Positions 39,228 to 62,377 of a stretch of 64,000 nucleotides of DNA are shown one piece after another. Below the pieces are notes generated by a model that saw only the letters and a program-made list of their open reading frames with translations, was not told the origin of the DNA and did not search any database. The translations under genes and the position numbers were made by a program. Within the stretch, counting starts at the first letter, position 1, and every line of letters starts with the position of its first letter. Source of the stretch: Lachnospiraceae bacterium OM04-12BH (GTDB lineage: Bacteria > Bacillota > Clostridia > Lachnospirales > Lachnospiraceae). The stretch spans positions 62,327 to 126,326 of the forward strand of contig QULQ01000008.1 of NCBI GenBank assembly GCA_003490145.1, in the 5' to 3' direction.

Positions 39228-39255
39228 TTGTGAAGGGATTTACATATGTTATAAT
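39228..39255 (+). promoter_or_regulatory. Promoter at the head of the cassette region
   Basis: TTGTGA at 39228-39233 and TATAAT at 39250-39255 are 16 bp apart with a TGT extension of the -10. It lies right after a terminator and about 11 bp before the first intergenic repeat, so it could drive the first genes of the array. Confidence 0.6.
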
Positions 39256-39265
39256 AAAACAAATT

Positions 39266-39287
39266 AACAAATCGGAAATTGTGAGGG
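39266..39287 (+). repeat. Cassette-boundary repeat, right-half copy 1
   Basis: AACAAATCGGAAATTGTGAGGG matches the shared right-half core (ATCGGAAGTTGT plus purine-rich Shine-Dalgarno) found before several genes of the accessory region. It directly precedes the start codon at 39293. Confidence 0.6.
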
Positions 39288-39292
39288 TAATT

Positions 39293-39949
39293 ATGATAAA
39301 GTTTTTGAATGATATCAGGAATGTAGAAAAACCAATATCTAATAATAGAAAAATTATAAATACTATAGCTGTATTGTTACTTGGAATAGCTTTGGGGACT
39401 TTTTCAAAATTTTTGGATTTTCGTCAAGCTGAACTTCCCAGTGTGCTTATGGCAATAGATGGAGCATTAGATGTTCATAATTTCCTTGGACGTTTTGCAA
39501 TCTGGGTATTGATTGCACTGTGTATTTCTATTTATAGCAATTCTGCAATAAGAGCAAGCATTAATGTTTTTGCATTCTTTATTGGTATGGTTGCAAGTTA
39601 CTATTTGTATTCAAACTATATTGCAGGATTTTTTCCAAGAAGTTATGCGGTGATTTGGTTTGGATTTACAGCTGTTTCTCCATTATTGTCTTTTGCCTGC
39701 TGGTATGCAAGGGGGAAAAGCAAACTGGCACTTATACTATCGGCGCTGATTTTGGCAGTATTGTTCAATATGTGCTTTGTATATGGATGCTGGTATTTTA
39801 ATGCAAAATCTGTTTTAGAAGTGATAGTCTTTATTATTGGACTTATTGTTTTGAGGAGAGACACATTGAGGAGTTCTGCGCTAATGGGAACGATTAGTAT
39901 AGTTCTTGTAGTTTTACTTGATATGGTTATTCCATTTCATTTTGGATAA
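39293..39949 (+). CDS. Multi-pass membrane protein of unknown function
   Basis: A 218-aa protein with about six TM segments, including IINTIAVLLLGIALGTF near the N-terminus and TISIVLVVLLDMVIPF at the C-terminus. I do not assign a family with confidence. The start at 39293 follows GTGAGGG within the repeat; a longer in-frame start (39197) lies inside the upstream terminator. The gene is AT-rich compared with everything to its left, which marks the beginning of the accessory region. It is flanked by repeat copies at 39266 and 39953. Confidence 0.7.
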   Translation: MIKFLNDIRNVEKPISNNRKIINTIAVLLLGIALGTFSKFLDFRQAELPSVLMAIDGALDVHNFLGRFAIWVLIALCISIYSNSAIRASINVFAFFIGMVASYYLYSNYIAGFFPRSYAVIWFGFTAVSPLLSFACWYARGKSKLALILSALILAVLFNMCFVYGCWYFNAKSVLEVIVFIIGLIVLRRDTLRSSALMGTISIVLVVLLDMVIPFHFG

Positions 39950-39952
39950 ACA

Positions 39953-39990
39953 ACTTCAAGTTTGGAGAATTGAAAAAAACGGAATTTACC
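39953..39990 (+). repeat. Cassette-boundary repeat, full-length copy 2
   Basis: It begins ACTTCAAGTTTGGAGAATTG and ends ACGGAATTTACC, three bases after the preceding stop codon. It matches the full-length copies at 42089, 58166 and 61901 with scattered differences. Confidence 0.7.
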
Positions 39991-40009
39991 TATTAGGACA
40001 TATAAACTG

Positions 40010-40065
40010 TTGACAATAAAGCTCCTATATAGTATGTTTTTGGTAAACTACTATATAGGAGCTTT
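40010..40065 (+). promoter_or_regulatory. MarR-gene promoter with overlapping long inverted repeat operator
   Basis: TTGACA (40010-40015) and TATGTT (40033-40038) are 17 bp apart. A 17-bp perfect inverted repeat, AAAGCTCCTATATAGTA (40018-40034) and TACTATATAGGAGCTTT (40049-40065), covers the spacer, the -10 box and the start site; each arm holds the palindrome CTATATAG. The right arm also contains the AGGAG site of the MarR gene. This is the layout of an autoregulated MarR-family operon. Confidence 0.75.
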
Positions 40066-40068
40066 TGT

Positions 40069-40506
40069 ATGGAAATGAATGGAGGATTTCTTGTCACCAA
40101 AATAAAACAGCTTGGAGACCGGATTTTCGAGAAGATTCTCAGTGAAAAGAATATTGATGCGTTTAATGGAGCCCAGGGGCGTATTCTTTATGTGCTGTGG
40201 CAGGAGGATGGTATCTCAATCAGGTCACTCTCGACTAAATGCGGATTAGCGATAACATCTCTTACTACGATGCTGGAAAGAATGGAAAATCAAGGGCTGA
40301 TAAGCCGTGTTCAGTCTGAAACGGACAAAAGGAAAACACTCCTGTTTCTGACTGAGAAAGCACATACCTTAAAGGGCGAGTATGATTCTGTATCTGATGA
40401 GATGGGCAATATTTACTACAAAGGTTTTTCAAAGGAAGAAATTACCCGGTTTGAGGAATGCCTCGACCGCATCAGAAAGAATCTTGAGGAGTGGCAGAAG
40501 TCATGA
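40069..40506 (+). CDS. MarR family regulator of a radical SAM gene pair
   Basis: A 145-aa winged-helix regulator. The recognition region is ISIRSLSTKCGLAITSLTTMLERMENQGLI followed by the wing VQSETDKRKTLLFLT, given as family landmarks. Gene order MarR-radical SAM-radical SAM with 4-nt and 13-nt overlaps matches what genome annotation calls the radical SAM mobile pair system, of unknown function. It probably represses its own operon through the inverted repeat at 40018-40065. The start could be 40069 or 40075; AGGAG at 40058 favours the first. Confidence 0.88.
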   Translation: MEMNGGFLVTKIKQLGDRIFEKILSEKNIDAFNGAQGRILYVLWQEDGISIRSLSTKCGLAITSLTTMLERMENQGLISRVQSETDKRKTLLFLTEKAHTLKGEYDSVSDEMGNIYYKGFSKEEITRFEECLDRIRKNLEEWQKS

Positions 40507-41192
40507 GTATTTGTATCAAAGATCAGATTCAGAACATGAATATCGTCATTGGCTGCACAGTGGGGTGTGCATATTGCTATGCCCGCAACAACGTGAAACG
40601 CTGGCATATGATTGATGACTTCGCTGACCCTGAATTCTTTCCGGGTAAGCTCAAGATGATGGAAAAGAAACGTCCGCAGAACTTTCTTCTTACTGGGATG
40701 AGCGATCTCTCCGGATGGAAGCCGGAATGGAGAGACGAGGTATTTGCAAAGATCCGTGAAAATCCGCAGCATCAGTTCCTGTTCCTTACCAAGCGACCTG
40801 ATTTGCTGGATTTTGATACCGATCTGGAAAACGCATGGTTTGGCGTTACGGTGACGAGGAAAGCAGAACTGTGGCGTATCGACGCACTTCGGAAAAACGT
40901 CAGAGCAAAACATTACCATGTTAGCTTTGAGCCGTTATTCGACGATCCCGGCACAGTTGACCTTTCCGGAATCAATTGGATCGTTGTCGGCACCATGACC
41001 GGAGCTCAGAACAGGAAGATTCATACGGAGCCGGAATGGGCATGGTCTCTGGCGGACCAGGCACATAAGCTCGGCATTCCGGTGTTTATGAAGGAAGACC
41101 TTGTCCCTATCATAGGGGATGAAAATATGATTCAGGAAATGCCGGAAGAATTTAATAAAGTGTTAGAGGTACAGAAATCATGGAAGAAGTAA
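40503..41192 (+). CDS. Radical SAM protein, 'mobile pair' protein A type
   Basis: A 229-aa protein whose only clear motif is the iron-sulfur cluster site CTVGCAYCYAR near residue 20 (CX3CX2C), diagnostic for radical SAM enzymes. LFLTKRPDLL and YHVSFEPLFDD resemble DUF5131-like members. It starts in the ATGA overlap with the MarR gene. It would cleave SAM to a 5'-deoxyadenosyl radical; the substrate is unknown. The trio is GC-richer than its AT-rich neighbours, which suggests separate acquisition. Confidence 0.85.
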   Translation: MSICIKDQIQNMNIVIGCTVGCAYCYARNNVKRWHMIDDFADPEFFPGKLKMMEKKRPQNFLLTGMSDLSGWKPEWRDEVFAKIRENPQHQFLFLTKRPDLLDFDTDLENAWFGVTVTRKAELWRIDALRKNVRAKHYHVSFEPLFDDPGTVDLSGINWIVVGTMTGAQNRKIHTEPEWAWSLADQAHKLGIPVFMKEDLVPIIGDENMIQEMPEEFNKVLEVQKSWKK

Positions 41193-42088
41193 TAAATGGA
41201 ATCCTCATTCGTGAGGTGGAAACAAAGAACATCATGACTAAGTCTAGTCTGCCGGTAGGCGGTTACTCGGTCAATCCCTATGTGGGCTGTACACATGCCT
41301 GCAAGTATTGCTATGCTTCTTTTATGAAGCGCTTTACCGGGCACAAGGAGGAATGGGGCACTTTCCTTGATGTGAAGCATTGGCCGGAAATTAAAAATCC
41401 GAAGAAATATGCCGGACAGCGGGTGGTCATCGGTTCTGTGACAGATGGCTACAATCCACAGGAGGAGCAATTCGGGAATACCAGAAAACTTCTGGAGCAG
41501 CTGATCGGCAGTGACGCAGATATTCTGATCTGCACAAAGTCGGATCTTGTGGTACGGGATATTGATCTGCTGAAGAAGCTTGGACATGTAACCGTTTCAT
41601 GGTCGATCAACACACTGGATGAAAATTTCAAGAACGATATGGATTCTGCTTCGAGCATTGAGCGCCGTATCTCTGCTATGAAGCAGGTATATGAAGCAGG
41701 TATCCGTACAGTCTGTTTCGTATCCCCGGTATTCCCTGGTATCACGGACTTTGAAGCAATCTTTGAGCGGGTAAAGGATCAGTGCGATCTGTTCTGGCTC
41801 GAAAATCTCAATCTTCGAGGCGGTTTCAAAAAGACAATTATGGATTATATCGCCGGAAAATATCCTGATCTTGTACCACTTTACGACGAGATCTATAACA
41901 AGCATAACCGCAGCTATTTTGAAGCACTTGAAGTAAAAGCTGAGAAAATGGCTAAGAAGTATGATTGTGCTTTTGTGGATAATGAAATGCCTTATGGCAG
42001 AGTCCCGCAGGGGCATCCGGTGATCGTAGATTATTTCTATCATGAGGAAATCCGTGGGACAGAGAATACCGGAAAAAGAAATCGCTAA
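41180..42088 (+). CDS. Radical SAM protein, 'mobile pair' protein B type
   Basis: A 302-aa radical SAM enzyme of the SPL-like (spore photoproduct lyase-related) appearance, with cluster motif CTHACKYCYA near residue 36 and VVIGSVTDGYNPQEE and LLEQLIGSDADILICTKSD downstream. It overlaps protein A by 13 nt, so the two are translated together and may form a complex or act in sequence. Substrate and function are unknown. A full-length boundary repeat begins on the base after its stop codon. Confidence 0.85.
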   Translation: MEEVINGILIREVETKNIMTKSSLPVGGYSVNPYVGCTHACKYCYASFMKRFTGHKEEWGTFLDVKHWPEIKNPKKYAGQRVVIGSVTDGYNPQEEQFGNTRKLLEQLIGSDADILICTKSDLVVRDIDLLKKLGHVTVSWSINTLDENFKNDMDSASSIERRISAMKQVYEAGIRTVCFVSPVFPGITDFEAIFERVKDQCDLFWLENLNLRGGFKKTIMDYIAGKYPDLVPLYDEIYNKHNRSYFEALEVKAEKMAKKYDCAFVDNEMPYGRVPQGHPVIVDYFYHEEIRGTENTGKRNR

Positions 42089-42130
42089 CTTCCGGCTTGT
42101 AGAATTAAGAAAATCGTTGTTTATAGAGGT
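42089..42130 (+). repeat. Cassette-boundary repeat, full-length copy 3
   Basis: CTTCCGGCTTGTAGAATTAA and GAAAATCGTTGTTTATAGAGG form a copy directly after the stop codon of the radical SAM B gene. The GTAGAATTAAGAAAATCG core is identical to the copy at 58166. Confidence 0.75.
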
Positions 42131-42138
42131 AAATGCAA

Positions 42139-42591
42139 ATGGCAATTGAGTATAGAAAATTATGTGAAAAGGATCTGGATATATTCATTGAAATGAGAAT
42201 AAATCAGTTGAGAGAAGAGGGGGCTAAAGAGGATATTGATTTAAAACCAGCTTTACGGGATTATTATATACGCCATATGAAAGATGGTACATTTGTTTCG
42301 TGGATAGCAGTAGATGATGAAAAAATCATTGGTACAAGCGGAATGTCATTTGTAGAAAAACCACCATATTTCGGATGTCCCAGTGGAAAGATGGGGCTTT
42401 TATCCAGCATGTTTACAAATGCCGATTACAGACGGATGGGAATTGCAAAAGAACTTTTACATAGAGTTGTTAAAGAAGCCCAAAATTATGGCTGTGGTAC
42501 GATTCAAATTACAGCATCTGATATGGGAGTGAAATTATATACTGCATATGGATTTGTTCATAACGGTAATTTCATGCAATACAAACTTTAA
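42139..42591 (+). CDS. GNAT family N-acetyltransferase
   Basis: A 150-aa acetyl-CoA-dependent acyltransferase. Motif A is SSMFTNADYRRMGIAKELL with the Q/RxxGxG/A pyrophosphate loop (RRMGIA); the C-terminal beta-bulge is YTAYGFVHNG. The substrate (small amine, antibiotic or peptide) is not predictable. The ATG at 42139 is better spaced from GAGG in the boundary repeat than the ATG at 42133. Confidence 0.85.
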   Translation: MAIEYRKLCEKDLDIFIEMRINQLREEGAKEDIDLKPALRDYYIRHMKDGTFVSWIAVDDEKIIGTSGMSFVEKPPYFGCPSGKMGLLSSMFTNADYRRMGIAKELLHRVVKEAQNYGCGTIQITASDMGVKLYTAYGFVHNGNFMQYKL

Positions 42592-42600
42592 GGAGATCAT

Positions 42601-42762
42601 ATGAGTTTTACGATGTTATTGCTTCTCGCATACATAGTAATGGGTGTGGGAAGTTTTATCGCTTTTAAGCGAAAGCACAAAGCAATTGGTATAGCATTGC
42701 TGCTTGTAATAGTGCTTAGTGTCTTGATTTTGGGATACATGTGGATTCATTCGCCAATGTAA
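42601..42762 (+). CDS. Small two-TM membrane protein (53 aa)
   Basis: A short gene with AAGGAGA 5 nt before its ATG, ten bases after the GNAT stop. It encodes 53 residues with two hydrophobic helices (MLLLLAYIVMGVGSFIAF and IGIALLLVIVLSVLILGYMW) joined by a basic RKHK turn. No family is recognised. It ends just before a boundary repeat, so it probably shares a cassette with the GNAT gene. Confidence 0.65.
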   Translation: MSFTMLLLLAYIVMGVGSFIAFKRKHKAIGIALLLVIVLSVLILGYMWIHSPM

Positions 42763-42787
42763 CAATCGGAAGTTGTAGTAAAGGAGG
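42763..42787 (+). repeat. Cassette-boundary repeat, right-half copy 4
   Basis: CAATCGGAAGTTGTAGTAAA followed by GGAGG begins on the base after a stop codon and supplies the ribosome binding site of the next gene. ATCGGAAGTTGT is identical in the copies at 57156 and 59745. Confidence 0.75.
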
Positions 42788-42793
42788 TTTACA

Positions 42794-43171
42794 ATGGGGT
42801 TTTGGATTTTTATGTTGATTATGGATTTGCTTCTTCCATTTACGATGATTGGTTTTGGAAGATATTTTATGAAAAAGGCTCCCAAGGAAATAAATTCAGT
42901 ATTTGGATATCGGACTTCGATGTCTATGAAGAACAAAGACACATGGGAATTTGCTCATAAATATTGTGGTAAAGTCTGGTATGTCTGTGGAATGGTTATG
43001 TTGCCGATAACAGTAATCTTCATGCTTTTAGTGATTGGAAAAAATGAGGATTGTGTTGGGAGCATAGGAGGAATTATCTGTGGTGTTCAACTTATTCCTT
43101 TAATTGGGTCTATTCTCCCAACAGAAATAGCATTAAAAAAGAATTTTGATAAGAATGGAACAAGACGATAA
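42794..43171 (+). CDS. SdpI family membrane protein
   Basis: A 125-aa membrane protein with three to four TM segments. The family motif NSVFGYRTSMSMKNKDTWEFAHKY is split here as NSVFGYRTSMSMKN and DTWEFAHKY. SdpI of Bacillus gives immunity to the SdpC killing factor; the wider family is often of unknown role. No SdpC-like toxin gene is nearby, so an orphan immunity or stress role is possible. GGAGG from the repeat precedes the ATG. Confidence 0.8.
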   Translation: MGFWIFMLIMDLLLPFTMIGFGRYFMKKAPKEINSVFGYRTSMSMKNKDTWEFAHKYCGKVWYVCGMVMLPITVIFMLLVIGKNEDCVGSIGGIICGVQLIPLIGSILPTEIALKKNFDKNGTRR

Positions 43172-43192
43172 ATTCAAGTTTATGGAGAGTCG
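43172..43192 (+). repeat. Cassette-boundary repeat, left-half copy 5
   Basis: TTCAAGTTTATGGAGAGTCG follows a stop codon directly and resembles the left half (ATTCAAGTTTGTAG) of full-length copies. Confidence 0.5.
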
Positions 43193-43197
43193 CCGTT

Positions 43198-43623
43198 ATG
43201 ATTAGAGAATTTCAAAGGGATGATATAAATAAAGTTGCAGATATATGGTTGGATACAAATATAAAGGCACATAATTTTATCCCCGCCGAATACTGGAAAA
43301 GCAATTTCAAATCAGTAAAAGAAGCGTTGTTACTAGCAGAGGTTTATGTGTATGAGTATGATACAGAAATACAGGGTTTTATAGGGTTAAATGATGAATA
43401 TGTTGAGGGCATTTTTGTTTCTGGTGAAATGCAATCGCAGGGTATAGGTAAAATTCTGCTGAATTATGCAAAGGATAAAAGGAATAAGTTGCACTTGAAC
43501 GTATACCAAAAGAACGCACGGGCAATATCTTTTTATAAGAGAGAAGGATTTGAGATTCAGCATAGTGGCTTAGATGAGGCTACCGGAGAAAAAGATTATG
43601 TAATGACATGGCAACACAAATAG
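43198..43623 (+). CDS. GNAT family N-acetyltransferase
   Basis: A 141-aa acetyltransferase. The CoA loop is in SGEMQSQGIGKILLNYAK (QSQGIG), with NVYQKNARAISFYKREGFEI as the C-terminal part, typical of the YiaC/RimI-like small GNATs. It is unrelated in detail to the GNAT at 42139. It sits between boundary repeats as a single gene. The substrate is unknown. Confidence 0.87.
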   Translation: MIREFQRDDINKVADIWLDTNIKAHNFIPAEYWKSNFKSVKEALLLAEVYVYEYDTEIQGFIGLNDEYVEGIFVSGEMQSQGIGKILLNYAKDKRNKLHLNVYQKNARAISFYKREGFEIQHSGLDEATGEKDYVMTWQHK

Positions 43624-43659
43624 AAATTCCAGTAAGCTGGTGTGTTTAACCGAGAGACG

Positions 43660-43677
43660 AATTTGAATTTTTAGGAG
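43660..43677 (+). repeat. Possible cassette-boundary repeat, left-half copy 6
   Basis: AATTTGAATTTTTAGGAG resembles the left half of the repeat and carries the AGGAG of the next gene. It is preceded by a small CCAG/CTGG hairpin at 43629-43640. Confidence 0.4.
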
Positions 43678-43683
43678 AAAACG

Positions 43684-44646
43684 ATGAAGAAATGGACAAA
43701 AATATTGTTGATAATAGTTATAGTTATTTTACTTTTGTTTGTGGGAATGTCCTATTTTATAGGGACGCAAGTTTTCATGGGGTCTACTCAATTGGTTACT
43801 TGTGAAGATACTTCAAAAGTGAAAGATAGTTTTTGGGAAAGATATAATATGGATTATGATGTTTTCTGCAGTACATATACTATAGAAAAAGTTGAAATCA
43901 CTTCAACTTTTGATGAACATATGATACCGGCAGATTACATATATGCTCTTGGTGAAGAAGGAGATAAGAATAATCCAACAGTTATTTTAGTGCATGGTCT
44001 TGGTGGAAATCGTTATACCAATTATCCTTTAGCAGAAATGTTTTTGCAGAAAGGATATAATGTATTGACTTATGACCAGAGAAGTAGCAACGAAAATACA
44101 GCTCAATATACTACATTTGGATACTGGGAAAAATATGATTTGGTTGATTACATTGATTATGTCTATAGCCATGCACCGGAGCAAGTGATAGGAATATGGG
44201 GTACATCGTTTGGTGGAGCAACTGCAGGATTAGCAATGGGAGATAAGGATGTTGAAAACAAAGTGGATTTTCTGATTCTAGATTGTCCGGTTAGTGATAT
44301 GAAATGGATGGTAGAAGAAGAAATGAGAAAGATGGATATTGGATTGCCTATATCTTACATGACATTCTGTGGCAACATTATCAACAAAATGGAATTGGGA
44401 TTTAGTTATGATGATGCAAATGTATGTGACAAAATTGCAGATATTGAAATTCCGGTTTTGGTAATAAACAGTGAAGCAGATACATTAACCCCACAGTTTA
44501 TGGGACAAGAAATATATGATTCAATACAAAATGAAGAAATTAAAATGATTTGGACGGTAACTGATAGTGAACATACAGAAATGTGGTTAGATTACAACCA
44601 AGAATATCGAGAAAAGGTTCAAGAATTATTGAATTTTACTAAATAA
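43684..44646 (+). CDS. Membrane-anchored alpha/beta hydrolase
   Basis: A 320-aa protein with an N-terminal TM (ILLIIVIVILLLFVGMSYF) and an alpha/beta-hydrolase domain. The oxyanion stretch is LVHGLGGNRYTNYP, the nucleophile elbow GTSFGGA, the acid in NSEADTLTP and the His in DSEHTEMW. It would act outside or at the membrane on an ester or peptide. It resembles the BEM46-like serine hydrolases often found as single accessory genes. AGGAG precedes the ATG. Confidence 0.87.
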   Translation: MKKWTKILLIIVIVILLLFVGMSYFIGTQVFMGSTQLVTCEDTSKVKDSFWERYNMDYDVFCSTYTIEKVEITSTFDEHMIPADYIYALGEEGDKNNPTVILVHGLGGNRYTNYPLAEMFLQKGYNVLTYDQRSSNENTAQYTTFGYWEKYDLVDYIDYVYSHAPEQVIGIWGTSFGGATAGLAMGDKDVENKVDFLILDCPVSDMKWMVEEEMRKMDIGLPISYMTFCGNIINKMELGFSYDDANVCDKIADIEIPVLVINSEADTLTPQFMGQEIYDSIQNEEIKMIWTVTDSEHTEMWLDYNQEYREKVQELLNFTK

Positions 44647-44662
44647 TAGAAATAGGGAAAGT

Positions 44663-44700
44663 AAACTTTCAGTAATTCTGAGAGATGAAGTTGTATAGGT
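44663..44700 (+). repeat. Possible cassette-boundary repeat, copy 7
   Basis: AAACTTTCAGTAATTCTGAG and AGATGAAGTTGTATAGG carry inverted ends AACTT(T)CA and TGAAGTT and the right-half ending GAAGTTGTA-GG. Confidence 0.5.
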
Positions 44701-44707
44701 GATGAAA

Positions 44708-45289
44708 ATGAAAAAAGTAATCTTTGAAAAATCTATATTAAGTTGTGTGCTGATTTTTCTTATATGCTGTATCGCAAGAGTTGTAGAGTACTTTGGGATA
44801 AGAACAGACGAAACAATCCTAGCAGAGAATTTTATACATAAGGTTTTTGGCATAATTATTTTGGTGGTAATGCTTGTGTTATCAAAGCTTTCTTGGGATA
44901 GCATCGGATTTACAAAAACTAAGATTGTACAGAATGTCTTAAAAGGATTGGCGTTGGGAGTTTCCTGCTTTTCAATTGCTTATCTTGTAGAATGTGTTCT
45001 GCTGTATTGTATGAATGGGAATGTTCAGCTTTCTGTTTATACAAGTGGTTTTTCATTAAACGGTGAGGCGGTTAAGCAAACTGGAATTGGATTTATTCTA
45101 CTTTGTATTACTTTCAATCTTATAAATGTTTGGATGGAAGAGGGGATTTTTCGAGGACTTTTCTCTCGTCTGCTTGAAAATAGAATGAGTTTCAAAGGCA
45201 TAGTGTTTTTTATTGCCTTATTATTCGGAGTTTGGCATTGGGTTATGCCTATGAGAGACTATATAGAAGGCAACTCATGTAATATCTAA
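44708..45289 (+). pseudogene. CPBP intramembrane protease, C-terminally truncated
   Basis: A 193-aa polytopic membrane protein of the CPBP/Abi family (prenyl endopeptidase-like; often linked to bacteriocin self-immunity). The EEGIFRG motif and the second motif FGVWHW are present, but the last TM region and its conserved H/N residues are missing: after YIEGNS the frame reads CNI and stops. An unrelated coding remnant begins at the same point (45288). I infer that a deletion or recombination replaced the 3' end, so activity is doubtful. Confidence 0.65.
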
Positions 45290-45422
45290 CAACGAAGCTG
45301 ATAATTTGCAGATTATAAGAATATTAATAGGTCAGCTTATATCTTTTGTTTTAGTGATGAGTTTCTACAAAAAAGAGCGTAGCTGGGCAAAGGCTAGGTG
45401 GCTGGATTTAGAGCTTGGATAA
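45288..45422 (+). pseudogene. C-terminal remnant of an unidentified membrane protein
   Basis: An open frame without a start runs through this stretch. It encodes a TM-like segment (IIRILIGQLISFVLVMSFYK) and a basic tail ending WLDLELG before TAA. It is in a different frame from the CPBP gene it abuts, so the two are joined fragments of different genes. Confidence 0.5.
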
Positions 45423-45429
45423 TAAAAAA

Positions 45430-45465
45430 ATTTGAATTTGTAGAATTAGTAAATCTCGATTTTGG
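45430..45465 (+). repeat. Cassette-boundary repeat, full-length copy 8 (degenerate)
   Basis: TTTGAATTTGTAGAATTAGT then AAATCTCGATTTTGGG matches the full-length copies with several changes. It begins a few bases after the stop of the preceding remnant. Confidence 0.6.
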
Positions 45466-45521
45466 GAAATACAAGAATGTGTCTCATTATGGTTTTAATG
45501 CGGTTTGTAAGGAGAAACAAT

Positions 45522-45839
45522 ATGATTGGGTTTGTTATATGGTCACTTTTGGGAGTGTTTATAATTGGATTAGGAATAAAAGATATGTTTTCTAAGAATC
45601 CCGTTGGATTCTGGGCTAATACCGAAACAATAAAAGTAAAAGATGTTAAAGGTTACAATCGTGCGAGCGGACTATTGTTTATAATCTATGGAATCATTTT
45701 TGTTATATTAGGAATTCCACTGTTAGATGGTCAAAATACACCATACGTTCTGTTGTCGGTTATTGGTGTGATGGTGGAAACAATTGTAATTATGGCTGCT
45801 TATAGTTTAGTTATCGTTAAAAAGTATGAAGAGAAGTAA
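45522..45839 (+). CDS. DUF3784-like small membrane protein
   Basis: A 105-aa protein with three TM segments (IGFVIWSLLGVFIIGLGI, GLLFIIYGIIFVILGIP, LLSVIGVMVETIVIMAAYS). The segment VGFWANTETIKVKDVKGYNRA is typical of DUF3784/DUF6199-like small membrane proteins common in Firmicutes accessory DNA. Function is unknown. The ATG at 45522 follows TAAGGAG; in-frame ATGs further upstream are unsupported. Confidence 0.65.
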   Translation: MIGFVIWSLLGVFIIGLGIKDMFSKNPVGFWANTETIKVKDVKGYNRASGLLFIIYGIIFVILGIPLLDGQNTPYVLLSVIGVMVETIVIMAAYSLVIVKKYEEK

Positions 45840-45840
45840 A

Positions 45841-45862
45841 TAACTTTGAAGTTGCAAGGAGG
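45841..45862 (+). repeat. Possible cassette-boundary repeat, copy 9
   Basis: TAACTTTGAAGTTGCAAGGAGG contains the near-palindrome AACTTTGAAGTT and the ribosome binding site of the next gene. It looks like a version with the centre deleted. Confidence 0.45.
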
Positions 45863-55983: not shown

Positions 55984-55988
55984 TAGCT

Positions 55989-56450
55989 GTGAAGAAAATA
56001 GTTTTATCATTATGCTTGATACTATTGGGTGCTTCTGTGCTTTCAGGTTGTACAAAAGACGAATTTCTCGATCAGTATAACAATATTGTTCAGTCTGCTG
56101 GTTCCATAGCGCTTACCGGAAATTCATCCTTACAAGGTACGAAAGAAAAAGGAATTGATGATTATACAGGAAGCTATACAGCCAACTATGAGGATTTTTC
56201 AGATACAGAGTATTTGTTCGGCGGAACTTCCATAAAGCGTGAAGCTGGTAAGGATCTGTCTATTGACTGCGCGCTGGAGGTTACGGAGGGAACTGCAAAA
56301 GTATTCTGGATTTCTGGATCTGATGAAGCAGTCACTTTGTTTGAAACAACCGGAACATATAGTGATACAATTACACTCCCTGAAGGTGGAAACTATATCG
56401 GTATTGAATGTGAGAATTTCACTGGAAACATTGAATTAAATATTGAATAA
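55989..56450 (+). CDS. Small surface lipoprotein of the ABC operon
   Basis: A 153-aa lipoprotein with lipobox VLSGC (Cys21) and a beta-rich mature domain. It starts with GTG at 55989, preceded by AGGAAGGTGA. I recognise no family, but a lipoprotein at the end of a LanFEG-like operon suggests a peptide-binding immunity (LanI-like) or sensing role. This is an inference from position. Confidence 0.75.
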   Translation: MKKIVLSLCLILLGASVLSGCTKDEFLDQYNNIVQSAGSIALTGNSSLQGTKEKGIDDYTGSYTANYEDFSDTEYLFGGTSIKREAGKDLSIDCALEVTEGTAKVFWISGSDEAVTLFETTGTYSDTITLPEGGNYIGIECENFTGNIELNIE

Positions 56451-56477
56451 TACTCTGCCGGACGACGGCAAAAGAAA

Positions 56478-56549
56478 AAAGCCGCCGTAGAGCAGACAAT
56501 TTGACACGCCCATTTGAAACGGCGGCTTTGATTTTCAGAGCCGCCGTTT
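56478..56549 (+). terminator. Terminator region with three mutually complementary segments
   Basis: Segment A (56478-56488, AAAGCCGCCGT) and segment C (56539-56549, AGCCGCCGTTT) can each pair with segment B (56517-56529, AAACGGCGGCTTT). The B-C hairpin is a perfect 11-bp stem followed by CTTTG; the A-B hairpin has a 28-nt loop followed by TTTGATTTT. It ends the ABC operon. Confidence 0.65.
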
Positions 56550-56632
56550 CTTTGCGCCTACACAAACCTATGATAAATTTTCTGGAAATATTGTAGCTAA
56601 TAGTGATTTAAACTGTTGTATTTGTTTAAAAA

Positions 56633-56872
56633 TCAAAATATTTTTAATGAGTTTTCCGCATCTACCCACATCTGTATATTTCCATCAAGATATAACCTTG
56701 CATATTCAAGAGGGTCATCAATAGCGAGTGCGTTTAATGCACAGTCTGATCCAGGTGTAGTCTTTAAATTCTTTTCAGTTTCCCAGCAGTCAATGCGAAG
56801 CATATAGCCGGCACTGGTATAAACATCAATACTGTTGCACTGTGGATTGTATTCTGCAAATATTGTTCTCAT
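56633..56872 (-). CDS. Small conserved protein, probably DUF6061 family
   Basis: A 79-aa soluble protein beginning MRTIFAEYNPQCNSIDVYTS, with GSDCALNALAIDDPLEYARLYLDG near the middle. I believe it is the DUF6061 family, which occurs in integrative elements of gut Firmicutes and has no known function. AAGGAGATGGG precedes the ATG. It is one of the few minus-strand genes here and probably marks the edge of the mobile-element block. Confidence 0.7.
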   Translation of the reverse strand: MRTIFAEYNPQCNSIDVYTSAGYMLRIDCWETEKNLKTTPGSDCALNALAIDDPLEYARLYLDGNIQMWVDAENSLKIF

Positions 56873-56988
56873 CGTATCCCATCTCCTTATGATTCAATCG
56901 ATCATTAATTGTAAAAATTAAGAAGCATTCCAATCAGTTCACCATGTCAGTTTTATTTTGTGTTATACTATTTTATATAATTTTTTTG

Positions 56989-57059
56989 CCCTTGTATTTT
57001 CCCTTATCAGAGTTCGTAAACTTATATGGGAAGATATAACACAAGGGAAACAATAAGGG
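56989..57059. repeat. Symmetric set of four CCCTTRT motifs in a 313-bp gene-free stretch
   Basis: CCCTTGT (56989) and CCCTTAT (57001) face ACAAGGG (57041) and ATAAGGG (57053), each pair 12 bp apart, so the set is a two-fold symmetric array. It lies in the region 56873-57185, which has no gene. It may be a recombination arm-site, operator or element boundary. Promoter-like TATACT and TATAAT stretches occur just to its left (56963-56981). Confidence 0.5.
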
Positions 57060-57155
57060 AAAGCTCGCCTGCGACAAATCCAGCGTTTTAAATGGTTTAC
57101 AGTGAATTTAATAACAAAATATAACAGTTATTAAATTTCTTAAAACAGGTAAAAT

Positions 57156-57177
57156 CTCAATCGGAAGTTGTGGAGGT
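57156..57177 (+). repeat. Cassette-boundary repeat, right-half copy 15
   Basis: CTCAATCGGAAGTTGTGGAGG shares CAATCGGAAGTTGT exactly with copy 4 and supplies the ribosome binding site of the next gene. It marks the return of the array after the mobile-element block. Confidence 0.7.
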
Positions 57178-57185
57178 AGAAAAAC

Positions 57186-57780
57186 ATGTATAGAATATAT
57201 AGTGCACTTATCGAAATTGTTGCGGCAGCTGTTTTTATAATTCCTATTTGGTGCATATATAACAAGTTATGTTTTCATAGCTGGAAACGAACTATTATTT
57301 ATATGGTATTTGGGTTTTATTTTACTGCAGTCTTAGCACTTGTAGGCTTTCCTAATATAACATCTCTGAAAATTGATTTTGCAGTGAACGTTATCCCGTT
57401 TTTTTGATATGGTTTCGGATTTCATTAATGCTTGTTTGAATATACTTTTATTTGTTCCATTTGGTTTCTTTTTGCCGATATTGTGGGATAAATTTAGAAA
57501 CATTAAAAATATTGCCTTAATGGGATTTATAGCTACAAGTTTAATTGAAATATCACAGATTTTTACTTTTAGAACGAGTGATATAAACGATATTATTACA
57601 AATACTGTTGGTACTATAATTGGATATTTTATTGTACATAGGATAACTGATAATTTTACGAAGCGAATCTTTTCAAATTCAAAAATGGGTGACTTTTACA
57701 TAATATGTGTATCTGTAGCACTTATTATGTTCTTCCTTCAACCATTTATTTCATCATTGTTATGGGAAATGGTGCTGTAA
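57186..57780 (+). pseudogene. VanZ-like membrane protein, frameshifted
   Basis: The two frames 57186-57407 and 57409-57780 together encode one VanZ-family protein with five to six TM segments (NVIPF, then NILLFVPFGFFLPILW, SLIEISQIFTFRTSDINDIITNTVG). A run of seven T (57399-57405), where six would keep FFDMVSDF in frame, causes the break. VanZ-like proteins give low-level teicoplanin resistance in some cases. It is either decayed, phase-variable or a sequencing error. Confidence 0.8.
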
Positions 57781-57829
57781 CTTCCCGTTTATTGGGAAGT
57801 CGCAGAGAACGAAAAATCGGTATTTGACA
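57781..57829 (+). repeat. Cassette-boundary repeat, variant copy 16
   Basis: CTTCCCGTTTATTGGGAAGT with a 7-bp hairpin (ACTTCCC/GGGAAGT) and then AAAAATCGGTATTTGACAG follows a stop codon directly. It resembles the left end of copy 3 (AACTTCC) and the AAATCGG core. Confidence 0.55.
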
Positions 57830-57850
57830 GAGCGAAAGGAGCTGGATAAT

Positions 57851-58165
57851 ATGTTCATTATTATTTATGATTTTTCAATGGCAGTACTCATGTTTCTATT
57901 TGGAATATATTTTTACAAATCAAAAGGAAAAGCTGCCCGATTTTTGTCTGGTTATAATATGAAGTCAGAAGAAGAACGAAAAAAATATGATGAAAACGCT
58001 ATGTGTAAGGCATATGGAAAAAGAATGATGGTTATGTCTTTGCCGTTCATTGTAGGAATAATCATAGATATTCAATATCAAGGAACCGGTTGCTTGATTG
58101 CATGGATGATATGGCTTATTATGTTTATTTCATTGCTTATTGACAGACGTAAAAGAGAACGATAA
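57851..58165 (+). CDS. DUF3784 domain membrane protein
   Basis: A 104-aa protein with TM segments at the start (IIIYDFSMAVLMFLFGIYF) and in the second half, around the DUF3784 hallmark RFLSGYNMKSEEERKKYDE and CKAYGKRM. The role of the family is unknown. The ATG at 57851 follows AAAGGAG; the in-frame extension to 57824 runs through the repeat and is rejected. Confidence 0.8.
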   Translation: MFIIIYDFSMAVLMFLFGIYFYKSKGKAARFLSGYNMKSEEERKKYDENAMCKAYGKRMMVMSLPFIVGIIIDIQYQGTGCLIAWMIWLIMFISLLIDRRKRER

Positions 58166-58207
58166 ATTCAAGTTTGTAGAATTAAGAAAATCGGAATTCA
58201 ACAGGAG
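58166..58207 (+). repeat. Cassette-boundary repeat, full-length copy 17 (reference copy)
   Basis: ATTCAAGTTTGTAGAATTAA then GAAAATCGGAATTCAACAGGAG begins on the base after a stop codon and ends at a Shine-Dalgarno-like AGGAG. It is open in frame with the next gene, so automatic annotation can wrongly extend that protein with FKFVELRKSEF. Confidence 0.8.
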
Positions 58208-58226
58208 AAATGAAAGGAATAATGTT

Positions 58227-58862
58227 ATGGATGATAATCAAAGGATGAAAATCCGAAATTTCGTGTATTTAAACCAAGGAGCATTAAAAGGGCAAATTCT
58301 TTTTACAGGATCATCTTTGATGGAAATGTTTCCTGTCTGTGAAATTGCACGAAGCCAGGGTATCGAACAAGTGATATATAATCGTGGCGTTGGTGGATTG
58401 AATACAGATGAGTTTCTGGAAAATATCGATACATTGCTTTTAGATCTTGAGCCATCAAAGATATTTATCAATATCGGCACTAATGATATTACAAAAGAAC
58501 GATTTGGAAATCAGTGGATGTCACATTTAATGGATAATATCTGTAGAATCATGGAAATTATCAAATCCCGTATTCCAGATGCGGAAATTTTTATCATGGC
58601 GTTTTATCCTGCAAATCTTCACCTGCCATGGCAGACAGAACAATCAATTCAATGGATGAAACTCCGGACTCCTGAGAATCTTACATTATGTAATCATCGA
58701 TTAAAAGAAATAGCAGAAAAATACGGTTGTCGTTATCTTGATTGTAATGAAGCCCTTGTTGATGCACATGGTGAACAGAAATCGGAGTATGCCATTGATG
58801 GTGTACATATGTATGCAAATGGATATTTGAATGTTTTTAAGTCTTTAAAGCCTTATTTGTAA
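58227..58862 (+). CDS. SGNH/GDSL-type hydrolase
   Basis: A 211-aa cytoplasmic esterase-like protein. Block I is LFTGSSLMEMFP (nucleophile Ser), block II YNRGVGGLNTDEF, block III NIGTNDITK and block V AIDGVHMYANGY with the Asp/His pair. It may deacylate small molecules or glycans. The start at 58227 follows AAAGGAAT; the open frame upstream is a translation of the repeat. It shares one base overlap region with the next frame. Confidence 0.88.
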   Translation: MDDNQRMKIRNFVYLNQGALKGQILFTGSSLMEMFPVCEIARSQGIEQVIYNRGVGGLNTDEFLENIDTLLLDLEPSKIFINIGTNDITKERFGNQWMSHLMDNICRIMEIIKSRIPDAEIFIMAFYPANLHLPWQTEQSIQWMKLRTPENLTLCNHRLKEIAEKYGCRYLDCNEALVDAHGEQKSEYAIDGVHMYANGYLNVFKSLKPYL

Positions 58863-58897
58863 TGCATGAAAGAGTTTTATTAGTGGAACAAAAAGTA

Positions 58898-58920
58898 AAC
58901 AAATCGGGAGTTTTGGAGAG
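58898..58920 (+). repeat. Cassette-boundary repeat, right-half copy 18
   Basis: AACAAATCGGGAGTTTTGGAGAG is close to copy 1 (AACAAATCGGAAATTGTGAGGG). It precedes the alpha/beta hydrolase start at 58928. Confidence 0.6.
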
Positions 58921-58927
58921 AAAATTA

Positions 58928-59740
58928 ATGGAAGAAAAAACATATCAGACTCCTTGCGGAACAATCCACTATTGGACAAACGTTTCACACCCGGATGAAA
59001 TTACCCTTGTTTTTCTGCCCGGATTGACTGCCGATCATAGATTGTTTGATAAGCAGATTCAACATTTCAAGGAGAAGTATAATGTTGTGGTATGGGATGC
59101 ACCGGCACACGCCGCTTCATGGCCGTTTCGGTTTGATTTCGATTTGTTCGATAAGGCAAAATGGCTGAACGATATTTTAAATCAAGATAAAATTGCCAAA
59201 CCGGTCATTGTTGGGCAGTCTATGGGCGGATATGTTGGACAGGCTTATGCACAGCTCTATCCAAACCGATTAACAGGCTTTGTCTCCATTGACTCTGCAC
59301 CGTTGCAACGAAACTATGTGACTGCGGTTGAACTCTGGCTTCTGAAGCGAATGGAACCAGTATATGCTCATTATCCGTGGAAATTGCTTTTGAAATCGGG
59401 GACGGAAGGAGTTGCCACGTCTGATTATGGTAGAAATCTAATGCGTGAAATGATGCTGGTCTATGATGGTGACCAAAAGCGTTATGCGAAAATTGCTGGG
59501 CATGGTTTTCGTATTTTGGCAGAGGCAATGGAAAAGAATCTGCCATATGAACTGAAGTGCCCATCTCTGTTAATATGTGGAACTCAAGACCATGCCGGTT
59601 CATGTATAAGGTATAACAAAGCATGGCACCAAAAGAGTAGAATTCCTTTGAAGTGGATTGAAGGAGCTGGACATAATTCTAATACAGATAAACCGGAATT
59701 GATAAACAGTTTAATAGAAGAATTTGCCGCAGGTATTTAA
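58928..59740 (+). CDS. Alpha/beta hydrolase
   Basis: A 270-aa soluble hydrolase. FLPGLTADHRLFDKQ is the oxyanion region, VGQSMGGYVGQAYA the nucleophile elbow, LICGTQDHAGS the acid region and EGAGHNSNTD the His. The substrate is unknown; the overall form is of the MhpC/YvaM-like group. The start at 58928 (MEEKTYQTP) follows GGAGAG; the frame upstream runs through the repeat. Confidence 0.88.
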   Translation: MEEKTYQTPCGTIHYWTNVSHPDEITLVFLPGLTADHRLFDKQIQHFKEKYNVVVWDAPAHAASWPFRFDFDLFDKAKWLNDILNQDKIAKPVIVGQSMGGYVGQAYAQLYPNRLTGFVSIDSAPLQRNYVTAVELWLLKRMEPVYAHYPWKLLLKSGTEGVATSDYGRNLMREMMLVYDGDQKRYAKIAGHGFRILAEAMEKNLPYELKCPSLLICGTQDHAGSCIRYNKAWHQKSRIPLKWIEGAGHNSNTDKPELINSLIEEFAAGI

Positions 59741-59744
59741 TAAC

Positions 59745-59793
59745 AGACAACTCCCAGATTATGTAATCGCAAAATCGGAAGTTGTAGGGAGGT
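59745..59793 (+). repeat. Cassette-boundary repeat, copy 19 with inverted ends
   Basis: ACAACTCCC at 59747-59755 and GGAAGTTGT at 59777-59785 are near-perfect inverted ends around a 21-bp centre, and GGGAGG follows. This copy best shows that the element may fold as a hairpin. Confidence 0.65.
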
Positions 59794-59799
59794 ATCGTG

Positions 59800-61155
59800 A
59801 TGAAACGAGTGATCGCAATTTTACTTATTTCAATCAATATAATTTCTCTGACTGCCTGTACGCAGAAGGCAGGGGAAAATGAAAAATATCAAGTTGTTGC
59901 TGCTGAGTATCCGAGTATGGCAAAGTATCCAGATGAAAGTAAATATACGAAATTAAATGGTGACTTTGACAGTGATGGTTTTGATAAGGTTTACGATGCA
60001 TGGTGGGCCGATCGCAAAAAACAGATGAATCAACCGGATGGTTATAGAGATGGTCTGGATAGCTATCTGTCCACGCTTGTGCCACAGCTGCTCAGTGAAA
60101 CCGGTGGAGAAAACAAAGCTTGTTCTCCGATTAATATTTATATGGCTCTTGCCATGCTGGCGGAGGTGACCGATGGTAATAGCCGAAGCCAGATTCTGAA
60201 CCTGCTTGATTGCAATGATATAAACTCTCTTCATGAGAAGGCGTCTGCAGTCTGGAATGCAAATTACTGTGATGACGGTGCCGTAACCAGCATTCTCGCA
60301 AATTCTCTGTGGATGAACGATCAAATCAAATTTAAGCAGAATACTTTGGATTCGCTGGCAAAATATTATTATGCATCCTCCTTCCGGGGAGAAATGGGAT
60401 CTGCCGCTTATGATAAGGCACTTCAGGAGTGGATTAATCAACAGACTGGTGGACTTCTGGAAGAACAGGCCTCGAAATTGTCGATGGATCCGGAGACCAT
60501 CCTTGCTCTGGTTTCTACCATTTATTTCCGCACAAAATGGGATGGAGAGTTTTCTGAAAGTAATACAAAGCAGGATACATTTCATGCTGACAATGGTGAT
60601 GTGACTTGTGATTTCATGCACCAGAGCAATACAAATACGTATTATTGGAGCGAGCGCTTTTCAGCAGCAGCCAAAAAGCTGGAAGGCAGCGGATATATGT
60701 GGTTTATACGGCCGGATGAGGGCATAACACCGGAGGAATTGCTTGCCGATGAGCATACCATGGAATTTCTTCTCAGCAGCGGTGAGAAGGCCGAAAGCAA
60801 ATTTTTGATGGTGAATTTAGCAGTTCCTAAGTTTGATGTGGCATCCGATATGGAGCTGAAAAAGGATTTGATGAACCTTGGTATTACGGATATCTTTGAC
60901 CCGGAAACCGCTGATTTTTCTCCTATGACCGATGATACAGCGGCATATCTTTCTCAGGCTAAGCATGCGGTGCGTGTTGCGGTTGATGAGGAAGGAGTTA
61001 CGGCTGCGGCCTACACAGTGATGATGACAGCAGGTGCGTGCGCTCCGCCGGAGGAAGAGGTTGATTTCATTTTAAACCGACCGTTTATATTTGCTATCAC
61101 AGGGACAGACGGATTGCCGCTGTTTGTGGGAATTGTTCATCAGCCGCAGGTGTAG
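59800..61155 (+). CDS. Serpin-family protease inhibitor, predicted lipoprotein
   Basis: A 451-aa secreted lipoprotein (lipobox SLTAC, Cys20) with a full serpin fold. Landmarks are NIYMALAMLAEVTDGNSRSQIL, NSLWMNDQI, STIYFRTKWDGEF, the hinge VDEEGVTAAAYT and the ending RPFIFAITGTDGLPLFVG. Counting from the hinge (P17-P16 = EE) gives P1 Ala and P1' Cys, which would suit elastase-like proteases. Gut bacterial serpins known from bifidobacteria and Eubacterium block host elastase-type enzymes; a similar role is inferred. AGGGAGG precedes the ATG. Confidence 0.9.
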   Translation: MKRVIAILLISINIISLTACTQKAGENEKYQVVAAEYPSMAKYPDESKYTKLNGDFDSDGFDKVYDAWWADRKKQMNQPDGYRDGLDSYLSTLVPQLLSETGGENKACSPINIYMALAMLAEVTDGNSRSQILNLLDCNDINSLHEKASAVWNANYCDDGAVTSILANSLWMNDQIKFKQNTLDSLAKYYYASSFRGEMGSAAYDKALQEWINQQTGGLLEEQASKLSMDPETILALVSTIYFRTKWDGEFSESNTKQDTFHADNGDVTCDFMHQSNTNTYYWSERFSAAAKKLEGSGYMWFIRPDEGITPEELLADEHTMEFLLSSGEKAESKFLMVNLAVPKFDVASDMELKKDLMNLGITDIFDPETADFSPMTDDTAAYLSQAKHAVRVAVDEEGVTAAAYTVMMTAGACAPPEEEVDFILNRPFIFAITGTDGLPLFVGIVHQPQV

Positions 61156-61176
61156 TCTAGGTGGTTTCAAGAATAT

Positions 61177-61900
61177 ATGAGTGAATTGATTAAGGCTGAT
61201 AATGAATATAAAGAGTGGATTGCCGGAATATCCACTGATTTTAGAAAAAGCCAAATCAGGGCTTCTATGAAGATAAATGATGAGATGCTAAGATTTTATT
61301 GGAATATTGGTAAGGGTATTTCATCTATGAGTGAACAGTTCGGATATGGAATGGGATTCTATAAAACGGTGAGTGATGATTTGAAATCCATTTTGCCAGA
61401 TGTGAAATCATTTTCTCCAACCAATTTAAAATATATGAGATACTTTTATGAGATGTATTCTGATGCAGTATTTTGTCCTCAGGTTGAGGACGAATTGATT
61501 ACAGATGCAAATCGTCCCCAAGTTGGGGATGATTTACAAATCATTTTTAGAATTCCATGGGGACATAACAAAATAATACTTGATAATTGCAAAGGAAATT
61601 CTGCAAAGGCATTGCTATGTAGTTGTAGAAATCAAGACAGGAAAATTTGATTCTTCTTATGCAGGTCAATTGGGAACTTATGTTGTAGCTGTTAATCATC
61701 AGATGAAAACAGAAGCTGATAATCCTACTTTGGGACTTCTGATTTGTAAAGATATGGATAAAGTAGAAGCCCAGTATGCATTAGAATCTACTAGCCAGCC
61801 ACTTGGTATTTCTAGTTATGAATTATCAAAACTTATACCAGAAGAGTTCAGAGGTAGTATGCCTACCATTGAAGAAATTGAGGCTGAATTAAATGAATAA
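61177..61900 (+). pseudogene. DUF1016 (YhcG-type) nuclease gene with internal deletion
   Basis: The first frame (61177-61650) holds the N-terminal DUF1016 domain (RASMKINDEMLRFYWNIGKGIS). The second frame (entered near 61590-61620) holds the PD-(D/E)XK C-terminal part (CYVVVEIKTGKF, YAGQLGTYVVAVNHQMK, LGISSYELSKLIPEEF). The middle of the usual protein is missing and the join is out of frame. YhcG proteins are linked to recombination and phage defence. This copy is probably inactive. Confidence 0.85.
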
Positions 61901-61942
61901 ATTTCAATTTGCAGAATTAAGAAAACTGGTAATTGTGAGGAG
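61901..61942 (+). repeat. Cassette-boundary repeat, full-length copy 20
   Basis: ATTTCAATTTGCAGAATTAA then GAAAACTGGTAATTGTGAGGAG begins on the base after a stop codon and ends in GAGGAG before the next ATG. It shares AGAATTAAGAAAA with copies 3 and 17. Confidence 0.75.
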
Positions 61943-61948
61943 AAAAGA

Positions 61949-62317
61949 ATGAATATAAAGCAATTTTGGAAAGCTGTTCTTGCTCAGGATGAGGAAGAAA
62001 TCAGAAAATATTTCCACAAGGATGCCTATGTAAATTGGCATTGTACCAACGAACATTTTACTGTGGATGAATATATTATTGCGAACTGTGAGTACCCTGG
62101 AGAATGGGATGGAATTATCGAACGGACAGAAATAGTAAATGAGTTAATTATCACCGTTACGCAAATCTATCCCAGGGATAAAAGTATTTCTTTCCATGTA
62201 ACATCCTTTATTCAAACAAAAGATGATAAAATCATAGCAATGGACGAATATTATGCCGATGATGGAAGTGCACCGCAGTGGAGATTGGACAAGCACATAG
62301 GAACATCTGTTAAATAA
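61949..62317 (+). CDS. NTF2-like (SnoaL/DUF4440-type) small protein
   Basis: A 122-aa soluble alpha+beta protein that starts FWKAVLAQDEEEIRKYFHKDAYVNWH and ends IAMDEYYADDGSAPQW, the pattern of NTF2-like cone folds. Members are small-molecule-binding or enzymatic, with no fixed role. GAGGAG from the repeat precedes the ATG. It is the last gene of the array. Confidence 0.8.
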   Translation: MNIKQFWKAVLAQDEEEIRKYFHKDAYVNWHCTNEHFTVDEYIIANCEYPGEWDGIIERTEIVNELIITVTQIYPRDKSISFHVTSFIQTKDDKIIAMDEYYADDGSAPQWRLDKHIGTSVK

Positions 62318-62377
62318 TTTTCAGTTGTGCGCCCAGCCTAAGACACAGGCAGGATATTGCTACTCGTTTTTCGCTGA

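Follow-up and report, generated by a model that had tools for sequence, protein, structure and literature searches.

The stretch analysed here, hereafter the window, comprises 64,000 nucleotides of the genome of Lachnospiraceae bacterium OM04-12BH (contig QULQ01000008.1). Between positions 39266 and 62330, 36 genes or parts of genes were counted, of which only one is not on the + strand. Their products include acetyltransferases, SdpI, CPBP proteases, hydrolases, a toxin-antitoxin pair, a methyltransferase, VanZ, a GDSL hydrolase, a serpin, and DUF1016, and many of the boundaries between them hold a copy of a short sequence that we call the core. The window contains two arrays around a decayed integrative element that has kept one end and has no integrase left (Table 1). 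Taken together, the data presented below suggest that these are probably arrays of non-autonomous gene cassettes, lying at cores that also serve as the attachment cores of tyrosine-integrase elements. A first-pass annotation had described the region as one array of unrelated genes almost all on the + strand; the genes and the array layout agree with this description, while the single array resolves into two (39266-49411 and 57155-62330) that flank the decayed element.

Cores between the genes of the window

In aligned junctions, the core resolves into six variable bases between a left arm rich in A (AAA or AAC) and a right arm of (G)TTTG, and its sequence is almost its own reverse complement. 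The left arm often shares bases with the TAA that terminates the upstream gene, and the right arm leads into the ribosome binding site of the gene that follows, so that expression of a unit from upstream is conceivable. The promoter proposed at 39228-39255 matches at 10 of 12 positions; since that 1 kb holds 7 promoter-like sites compared to 4.6 +/- 2.1 by chance, it is only a candidate, also as the driver of the array. The full 45-bp element represents two tandem cores that enclose a micro-unit of 18 bp, TTTGGAGAATTGAGAAAA; the first core, J1, often reads TTCMAG and the second, J2, often TCGGAA. Locus L014 even has three cores in a row. A longer micro-unit (TTTATTGGGAAGTCGCAGAGAACGAAAAA) takes the place of the 18-bp one in L065, L115, L077, and at window positions 57779-57820, and recurs ahead of different genes.

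A position weight matrix (PWM) for the full element, whose training set took in the window's own copies, identified four copies (39951, 42086, 58163, and 61898) with scores of 38-61 of 68.8 bits; elsewhere in the 64 kb, nothing on either strand exceeded 12 bits. These correspond to the best full-length copies of the first-pass annotation (39953, 42089, 58166, and 61901), and together with 13 further single cores, they confirm its observation of one element recurring between the genes. Its right-half copies are real sites as well; they are single cores and not halves, and the site near 59745 holds both cores.

For the 18-bp core, a PWM was trained solely on fetched loci outside the window. At scores above 8, the spacers of the region (2,624 bp) contained 21 matches on the + strand compared to 6 on the minus strand, with 10 and 8 inside the genes of the region and 3 and 3 in window positions 1-39100; above 12, the respective numbers were 12 and 0, 1 and 2, and 0 and 0. 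Seven of the 21 + strand spacer matches belong to the four full copies, 13 are the further cores, and 1, at 53388 in the transporter operon, probably represents a chance match. When each spacer was shuffled, p<0.05 was reached in 15/24 spacers on the + strand and in 12/24 on the minus strand, and the strands are therefore separated only at p<0.01 (10/24 and 1/24, respectively). Borderline spacers are 43618-43686 (p 0.063), 56867-57188 (p 0.073), and 62312-62345 (p 0.05). No Rfam family was found at the element sites at gathering scores.

Table 1. Features of the two arrays and the decayed element, in window positions. Core motifs are given as left flank/six bases/right flank, or as the six bases only; numbers after cores are core PWM scores. 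ORF, open reading frame.
Positions	Strand	Feature	Evidence and remarks
37905-39107		rlmI-like gene, left neighbour of array 1	
39266-39283	+	Core AACAAA/TCGGAA/ATTGTG, start of array 1	12.0
39293-39949	+	Cassette gene, membrane protein	By eye
39949-39990	+	Double core, J1 TTCAAG and J2 ACGGAA, around micro-unit TTTGGAGAATTGAAAAAA	18.7 and 11.1
40069-42088	+	Three-gene cassette: MarR regulator, radical SAM mobile pair proteins A and B	TIGR04472, TIGR04471, TIGR04470, above curated cut-offs
42084-42125	+	Double core TTCCGG, TCGTTG	9.4 and 12.6
42133-42762	+	Cassette: GNAT acetyltransferase and small ORF (42601-42762)	PF00583 (acetyltransferase)
42760-42777	+	Single core TAACAA/TCGGAA/GTTGTA	13.0
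42794-43171	+	Cassette: SdpI family membrane protein	PF13630; 4 upstream contexts
43167-43184	+	Single core GATAAA/TTCAAG/TTTATG	14.2
43198-43623	+	Cassette: GNAT acetyltransferase	100% identical over 432 bp in L077 (genome of Roseburia faecis locus L003)
43684-44646	+	Alpha/beta hydrolase gene	PF00561; flanking cores weak or absent (spacer p 0.063, 0.42)
44702-45289	+	CPBP-type protease gene, disrupted tail	PF02517
45425-45465	+	Double core TTTGAA, TCTCGA	15.6 and 10.2
45522-45839	+	Cassette: small protein without Pfam match	Three other left ends before it in L014, L005, L115
45839-45856	+	Single core AATAAC/TTTGAA/GTTGCA	10.2
45868-47848	+	CPBP-like protease, integrase C-terminal fragment (46896-47171), RelB/ParE-type pair (47211-47848)	CPBP models below cut-off
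47891-48580	+	Flavodoxin-like reductase gene	Weak matches only; FMN-reductase models far below cut-off
48611-49374	+	Cassette: methyltransferase, broken frame	PF08241; 100% identical over 824 bp in L057
49394-49411	+	Core AGAAAC/TTTCAG/TTTATA, end of array 1	12.5
49565-57154		Decayed integrative element	Left limit uncertain; no integrase ORF recognised
50169-50762		AbiEi-like gene in decayed element	PF17194 below cut-off
50763-51683		Gene presumed to be AbiEii
51691-55983		Two-component genes and ABC transporter in decayed element	Two-component genes by eye; ABC model below cut-off
56633-56872	-	DUF6061 gene in decayed element	PF19537
up to 57154		Terminal leader of decayed element, with arm-like repeats	Leader common to L060, L017, L069
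57155-57172	+	Core TCTCAA/TCGGAA/GTTGTG, joining decayed-element end to array 2	8.9
57186-57780	+	Cassette: VanZ-like, broken frame	PF04892
57811-57828	+	Core GAAAAA/TCGGTA/TTTGAC	13.4
57851-58165	+	Cassette: small-protein ORF
58161-58202	+	Double core TTCAAG, TCGGAA	18.5 and 8.8
58227-58862	+	Cassette: GDSL/SGNH hydrolase	PF13472
58898-58915	+	Core AACAAA/TCGGGA/GTTTTG	9.8
58928-59740	+	Cassette: alpha/beta hydrolase	PF00561; different neighbours in L008/L023 and L060
59746-59786	+	Double core TCCCAG, TCGGAA	8.1 and 15.0
59800-61900	+	Serpin (59800-61155) and DUF1016/YhcG-like gene (61177-61900, broken frame)	PF00079, PF06250, PF17761; no core in between
61896-61937	+	Double core TTTCAA, CTGGTA	14.4; second core by eye, below threshold
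61949-62317	+	Cassette gene without Pfam match	72% homologue behind radical-SAM cassette in L055
62313-62330	+	Weak terminal core AATAAT/TTTCAG/TTGTGC	Best of spacer 3.3, p 0.05

Several further observations concern individual parts of the window. The fragment at 46896-47171 is the C-terminus of a tyrosine recombinase, and its strongest match among the loci scanned is L072:2184-3173, a recombinase adjoining restriction-modification-like genes. L072 gave the sole strong match besides the fragment itself in the scanned loci, and its recombinase was set aside as a candidate cassette mover. Directly past array 2, positions 62380-62485 look by eye like another integrase C-terminus remnant. In L008 and L036, the hydrolase cassette has a tandem repeat of GGAAGTTTTGGAGAGAAAATC at its start. 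Upstream of both arrays, a T-box leader lies at 28961-29214 (96.8 bits). DNA similarity was found to 2 plasmid records and to 4 phage records, the latter in short pieces only, and the viral scan yielded a single stretch, in L023.

Cassettes as units exchanged between species

A scan of species genomes with TTTGNAGAATTRAGAAAANCGG returned 22 stretches, of which 18 were judged real and 4 (L002, L004, L016, and L021) were dropped as chance; most of the 18 belong, according to their record titles, to genera that we take to be Lachnospiraceae. Read by eye, the full element lies behind a gene end and ahead of a ribosome binding site. In 17 genomes that were searched further, 1-5 copies were found per genome, none with the reversed pattern, and they lie in varying neighbourhoods, i.e., neither an even genome-wide spread nor a conserved order was seen. 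Within the family, 48 of 397 genomes matched the element with up to 3 mismatches, compared to 9 for a reversed control pattern; since only 9 of 23 newly fetched loci (L091-L113) were judged real by eye, the true share lies below 48/397. The gene to the left of array 1 has matches in 229 of the 397 genomes with a best identity of 79%; these genomes thus include no close relative that would show the empty site of array 1 in this species.

All comparisons were made between species, with one genome per species. The three-gene radical-SAM cassette occurs at about 20 sites, mostly with 96-98% identity (94% in L126, 91-96% in L080), and positions 39955-42092 of the window are matched at 97.6% by two Lachnospira eligens plasmid records. 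At least 19 distinct neighbours adjoin the 21 copies read on the left, L071 and L121 having one neighbour in common and L117 and L122 another; for the 22 copies read on the right, there are about 20, with one common to L116 and L123 and one to L118 and L121. The boundaries of the copies lie close to the flanking cores. On the left, strong conservation sets in with the core and declines ahead of it, the right part of the double core at 39949-39990 being near-constant across 21 copies; on the right, conservation is kept up to ATCGCTAAC and drops thereafter. Identity between species ranges from 95-100% for some cassettes to 71-91% for others. Overall, of 125 homology ends between the window and the loci, 79 are no more than 15 bp away from a hand-listed core compared to 3.6% of random positions, and leaving out the radical-SAM cassette and the leader, this holds for 31 of 50 ends (our own count from the same rows).

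Partner exchange was assessed on 656 candidate sites, many of which are chance matches. Among them, several right partners were seen for 33 clusters of left ends, and several left partners for 28 clusters of right starts; a few of these clusters are reverse readings or come from an indel that divides a single partner. Behind radical-SAM B, one and the same left end is joined to 15 right partners, the six bases being of 7 kinds there and of an eighth in L126. One cassette start was found in four contexts, i.e., at an integrase-side element end (L160), at a leader end (L085), behind a micro-unit (L121), and in L012. Another left end (...GTATTTGAAAA.NNNGAACAA or similar) has six right partners in L069, L071, L116, L117, L121, and L122 and resembles a hot spot.

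A scan for occupied and empty sites gave 15 pairs. In L058, a 278-bp unit with one ORF of 75 amino acids lies between cassettes that touch in L121 and L071, and 1,482 bp are present in L055 and absent from L057. A 6,241-bp element with integrase and excisionase in L069 separates cassettes that touch in L117 and L122; it has TTCCAG at both ends, and the empty site reads TTCCAG in L122 and TTCAAG in L117. Further pairs are L116 against L117/L122 (4,079 bp), L116 against L071 (3,957 bp), and L121 against L085 (8,020 bp). Not counted were four pairs with the unit between copies of the same sequence (L060, L074, L116:3469, and L086), one reverse reading (L116+/L071-), and two pairs against L055 that differ by more than one unit (L069:2668 and L122:8108).

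These comparisons show that the cassettes occur as exact units with junctions in the core. The cassette-capture system suggested by the first-pass annotation gains support from the exchanged neighbours and the gain or loss of exact units between species: different genes lie between the same elements, as it had anticipated, and the same genes are also found with different neighbours. Its proposal that each cassette carries its own boundary element needs refinement, as the left arm goes with the upstream unit and the right arm with the downstream unit. A single fixed crossover place within the 45-bp element was likewise rejected, because cassettes join at either the first or the second core. J1 is used by the radical-SAM cassette in 21 copies, J2 by the SdpI cassette of the window and of L006.

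Short, similar, and repeated as they are, the elements could also be dispersed repeats at gene boundaries, with the gene order reshuffled by ordinary homologous recombination between repeats or arrays, and some breakpoints could indeed come from exchange between long shared cassettes. However, single cores have only about 10 bp in common, the middle six bases vary behind one unchanged left end, an integrated element sits exactly between two cassettes that touch elsewhere, and the ends of such elements carry the same core at a fixed position (see below). We therefore regard this explanation as quite unlikely.

Integrated elements that share the core

Both the L069 and the L085 element carry genes for a tyrosine integrase (PF00589) and for a Tn916-like excisionase (PF09035). 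A MobA/MobL relaxase was identified in L085 by Pfam, and L114 has homologues of integrase, excisionase, and relaxase as determined by phmmer. Past the integrase stop codon, AAGGGAAA-type repeats are followed by AAA, six variable bases, and TT. This AAA-N6-TT end was found in 28 distinct integrase-side ends with 15 kinds of six bases, at 91 bp from the arm repeat in 26 ends and 92 bp in one (L148 was read separately), by a script that looked for AAA-N6-TT and not for a fixed position. At the other end of the elements, a leader beside the DUF6061 gene runs mostly to ...AAATCTCAA, followed by six variable bases and then by cassettes or other DNA. Genome G004 has two ends 7.7 kb apart, one beside an array, which both read TCGGAG and are taken as the ends of one element. 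At the right end of the L069 locus, TTTGCCGAAATATATTTC behind the radical-SAM cassette is the reverse of an integrase-side element end, and this cassette seems to lie between two elements.

The decayed element of the window conforms to this picture, as it keeps the leader end at 57154, which elsewhere stands ahead of other cassettes, and no integrase of the resident-element kind was found in the window. Furthermore, TTGTGCGCCCAGC at the terminal core of the window is also present behind an integrase-side element end in L156. At E<=1e-50, the integrase was found in 18 of 32 core-positive genomes compared to 4 of 32 core-negative genomes (Fisher p 0.0005). By comparison of their ends, elements and cassettes use one and the same core.

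The arrangement shares with integrons, and with clusters of attC sites lacking integron integrases (CALINs), the arrays of small accessory genes in one orientation, the boundary elements, the shuffling, and an attI-like platform. It could accordingly be integron-type itself, with an attC-like single-strand hairpin (AAYTTC...GAARTT) and an integron integrase encoded elsewhere. In the best register, the outer arms are complementary in 72% of cells, and across all 70 sites, mutual information exceeds that of shuffles (p<0.05) in 3/7 columns. With one site per downstream unit (50 sites), however, only 1/7 columns (-8/+25) does so, and in the C-G column, pairing is rarer than in the shuffles. An integron attC moves almost entirely together with the gene upstream of it, whereas here, in 21 copies, the right part of the site accompanies the downstream gene. 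Against the integron-integrase model, whose cut-off is 265 bits, the element integrases reach 54-61 bits and the integrase fragment of the window 35 bits, no genome-wide IntI search with that model having been run. The attC-like hairpin is therefore disfavoured by little covariation and by a site that is split between neighbours; the pairing tested by script favours a double-stranded Tn916-type core over the attC-like reading of the element, and an integron-type system appears very improbable. Distinct from integrons are thus the core with coupling bases in place of a folded attC, the element end as platform, and an integrase that is not of the IntI type. The absence of an integron integrase noted in the first pass holds insofar as the integrase seen is of another type; an integrase does exist, in elements that insert at the same cores. 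Since the attC feature is absent and the integrase seen is not of the IntI type, the arrays are best described as integron-like in their working and are not classed as integrons.

With Tn916/Tn1549-type elements, the resident elements share a tyrosine integrase, a Tn916-like excisionase, arm-like repeats, variable targets joined via about 6 bp, and AT-rich flanks. Two reports (PMC12084037, PMC5871717) describe the targets of Tn916 and Tn1549 as T- and A-rich stretches around about 6 bp with almost no homology needed. The cassettes differ from such elements in consisting of cores only: the radical-SAM cassette examined has no arms, integrase, or relaxase, and none of the three genes identified in its window copy is an integrase.

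Non-autonomous units between attachment sites, beside or carried by related elements, are also known as cis-mobilizable elements (CIMEs) of the ICESt1/ICESt3 type, for which an accretion model has been published (PMC5704250). A cassette might accordingly be a complete element that shrank to two cores and one cargo gene in the course of ordinary tandem accretion. The window does hold a decayed element with one end left at 49565-57154, which looks like such a remnant, while no trace of one was recognised within the cassettes. The radical-SAM cassette has cores on both sides, as CIMEs keep both attachment sites. Here, the units are single genes or operons, in arrays at many places with cores of low specificity. 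However, accretion accounts for presence at one site and not for the same minimal unit at about 20 sites. This explanation, which is a version of the cassette reading in which the cassettes themselves move less, is unlikely.

Some observations weigh against the proposed arrays of cassettes at shared attachment cores. In the window, 6 of 24 spacers lack a believable core according to the core PWM and the shuffles (44641-44704, 47166-47213, 47843-47893, 55150-55170, 56445-56635, and 61150-61179), and at 3 of 22 right sides of the radical-SAM cassette (L080, L118, and L121), homology does not extend past the stop codon and no core follows. The integrase loci L137 and L151 and the reversed end in L069 deviate from the AAA-N6-TT rule. 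Of the 32 core-positive genomes, 14 lack such an integrase at E<=1e-50 and at least one (G041) looks like a chance match; both sets of 32 were hand-picked, from 57 pattern-positive and 349 negative genomes, and are unmatched for kinship. The published Tn916/Tn1549 targets, TTTT-N6-AAAA (PMC12084037, PMC5871717), have the opposite polarity to the AAA-N6-TT of the element ends and the AAA-N6-TTT of the cores. Finally, the radical-SAM cassette of the window has no arm-like repeats, which makes integrase action on it in trans a tentative proposal, and no excision, circle, or transfer has been observed.

A possible route of cassette movement

The integrase of the elements would be the enzyme that moves the cassettes. 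It would recognise the short arms and tolerate many kinds of six bases between them, as for Tn916/Tn1549 but with opposite A/T polarity, and any cassette boundary with a core would be a possible recombination partner. Elements are inserted in cassette boundaries, with cassettes lying directly at their ends. In cis, the integrase could pair its own element end with the core beyond a neighbouring cassette, carry that cassette off, and later leave it behind, a route that would need little beyond the cis-mobilisation already described (PMC5704250). In trans, two flanking cores would recombine, and the cassette would exit as a circle and enter another core, with element ends playing the part of attI in integrons. 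We consider it possible, with somewhat more doubt than belief, that this constitutes a second, independently evolved integron-like capture platform across gut Lachnospiraceae, in which arm-less single-gene cassettes circle out and are inserted in trans by the integrases of elements with attI-like ends. A cassette leaving alone as a circle would be the more novel part of this model compared to the route in cis.

No description of such arrays was found in openly licensed papers, nor was the phrase "radical SAM mobile pair". The corresponding NCBIfam families (TIGR04470/71/72), for which the cassette at 40069-42088 lies above all three cut-offs, are mobile by name, with no mechanism given in the NCBIfam rows inspected; the present data add the ends of the unit. 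If the proposed explanation is true, Gram-positive gut commensals would have a cassette system of their own, which would account for near-identical small genes in different genera beside new neighbours. Furthermore, it would provide exact boundaries for the annotation of such cassettes and would allow the idea that a low-specificity integrase can serve as a general cassette recombinase to be put to the test.

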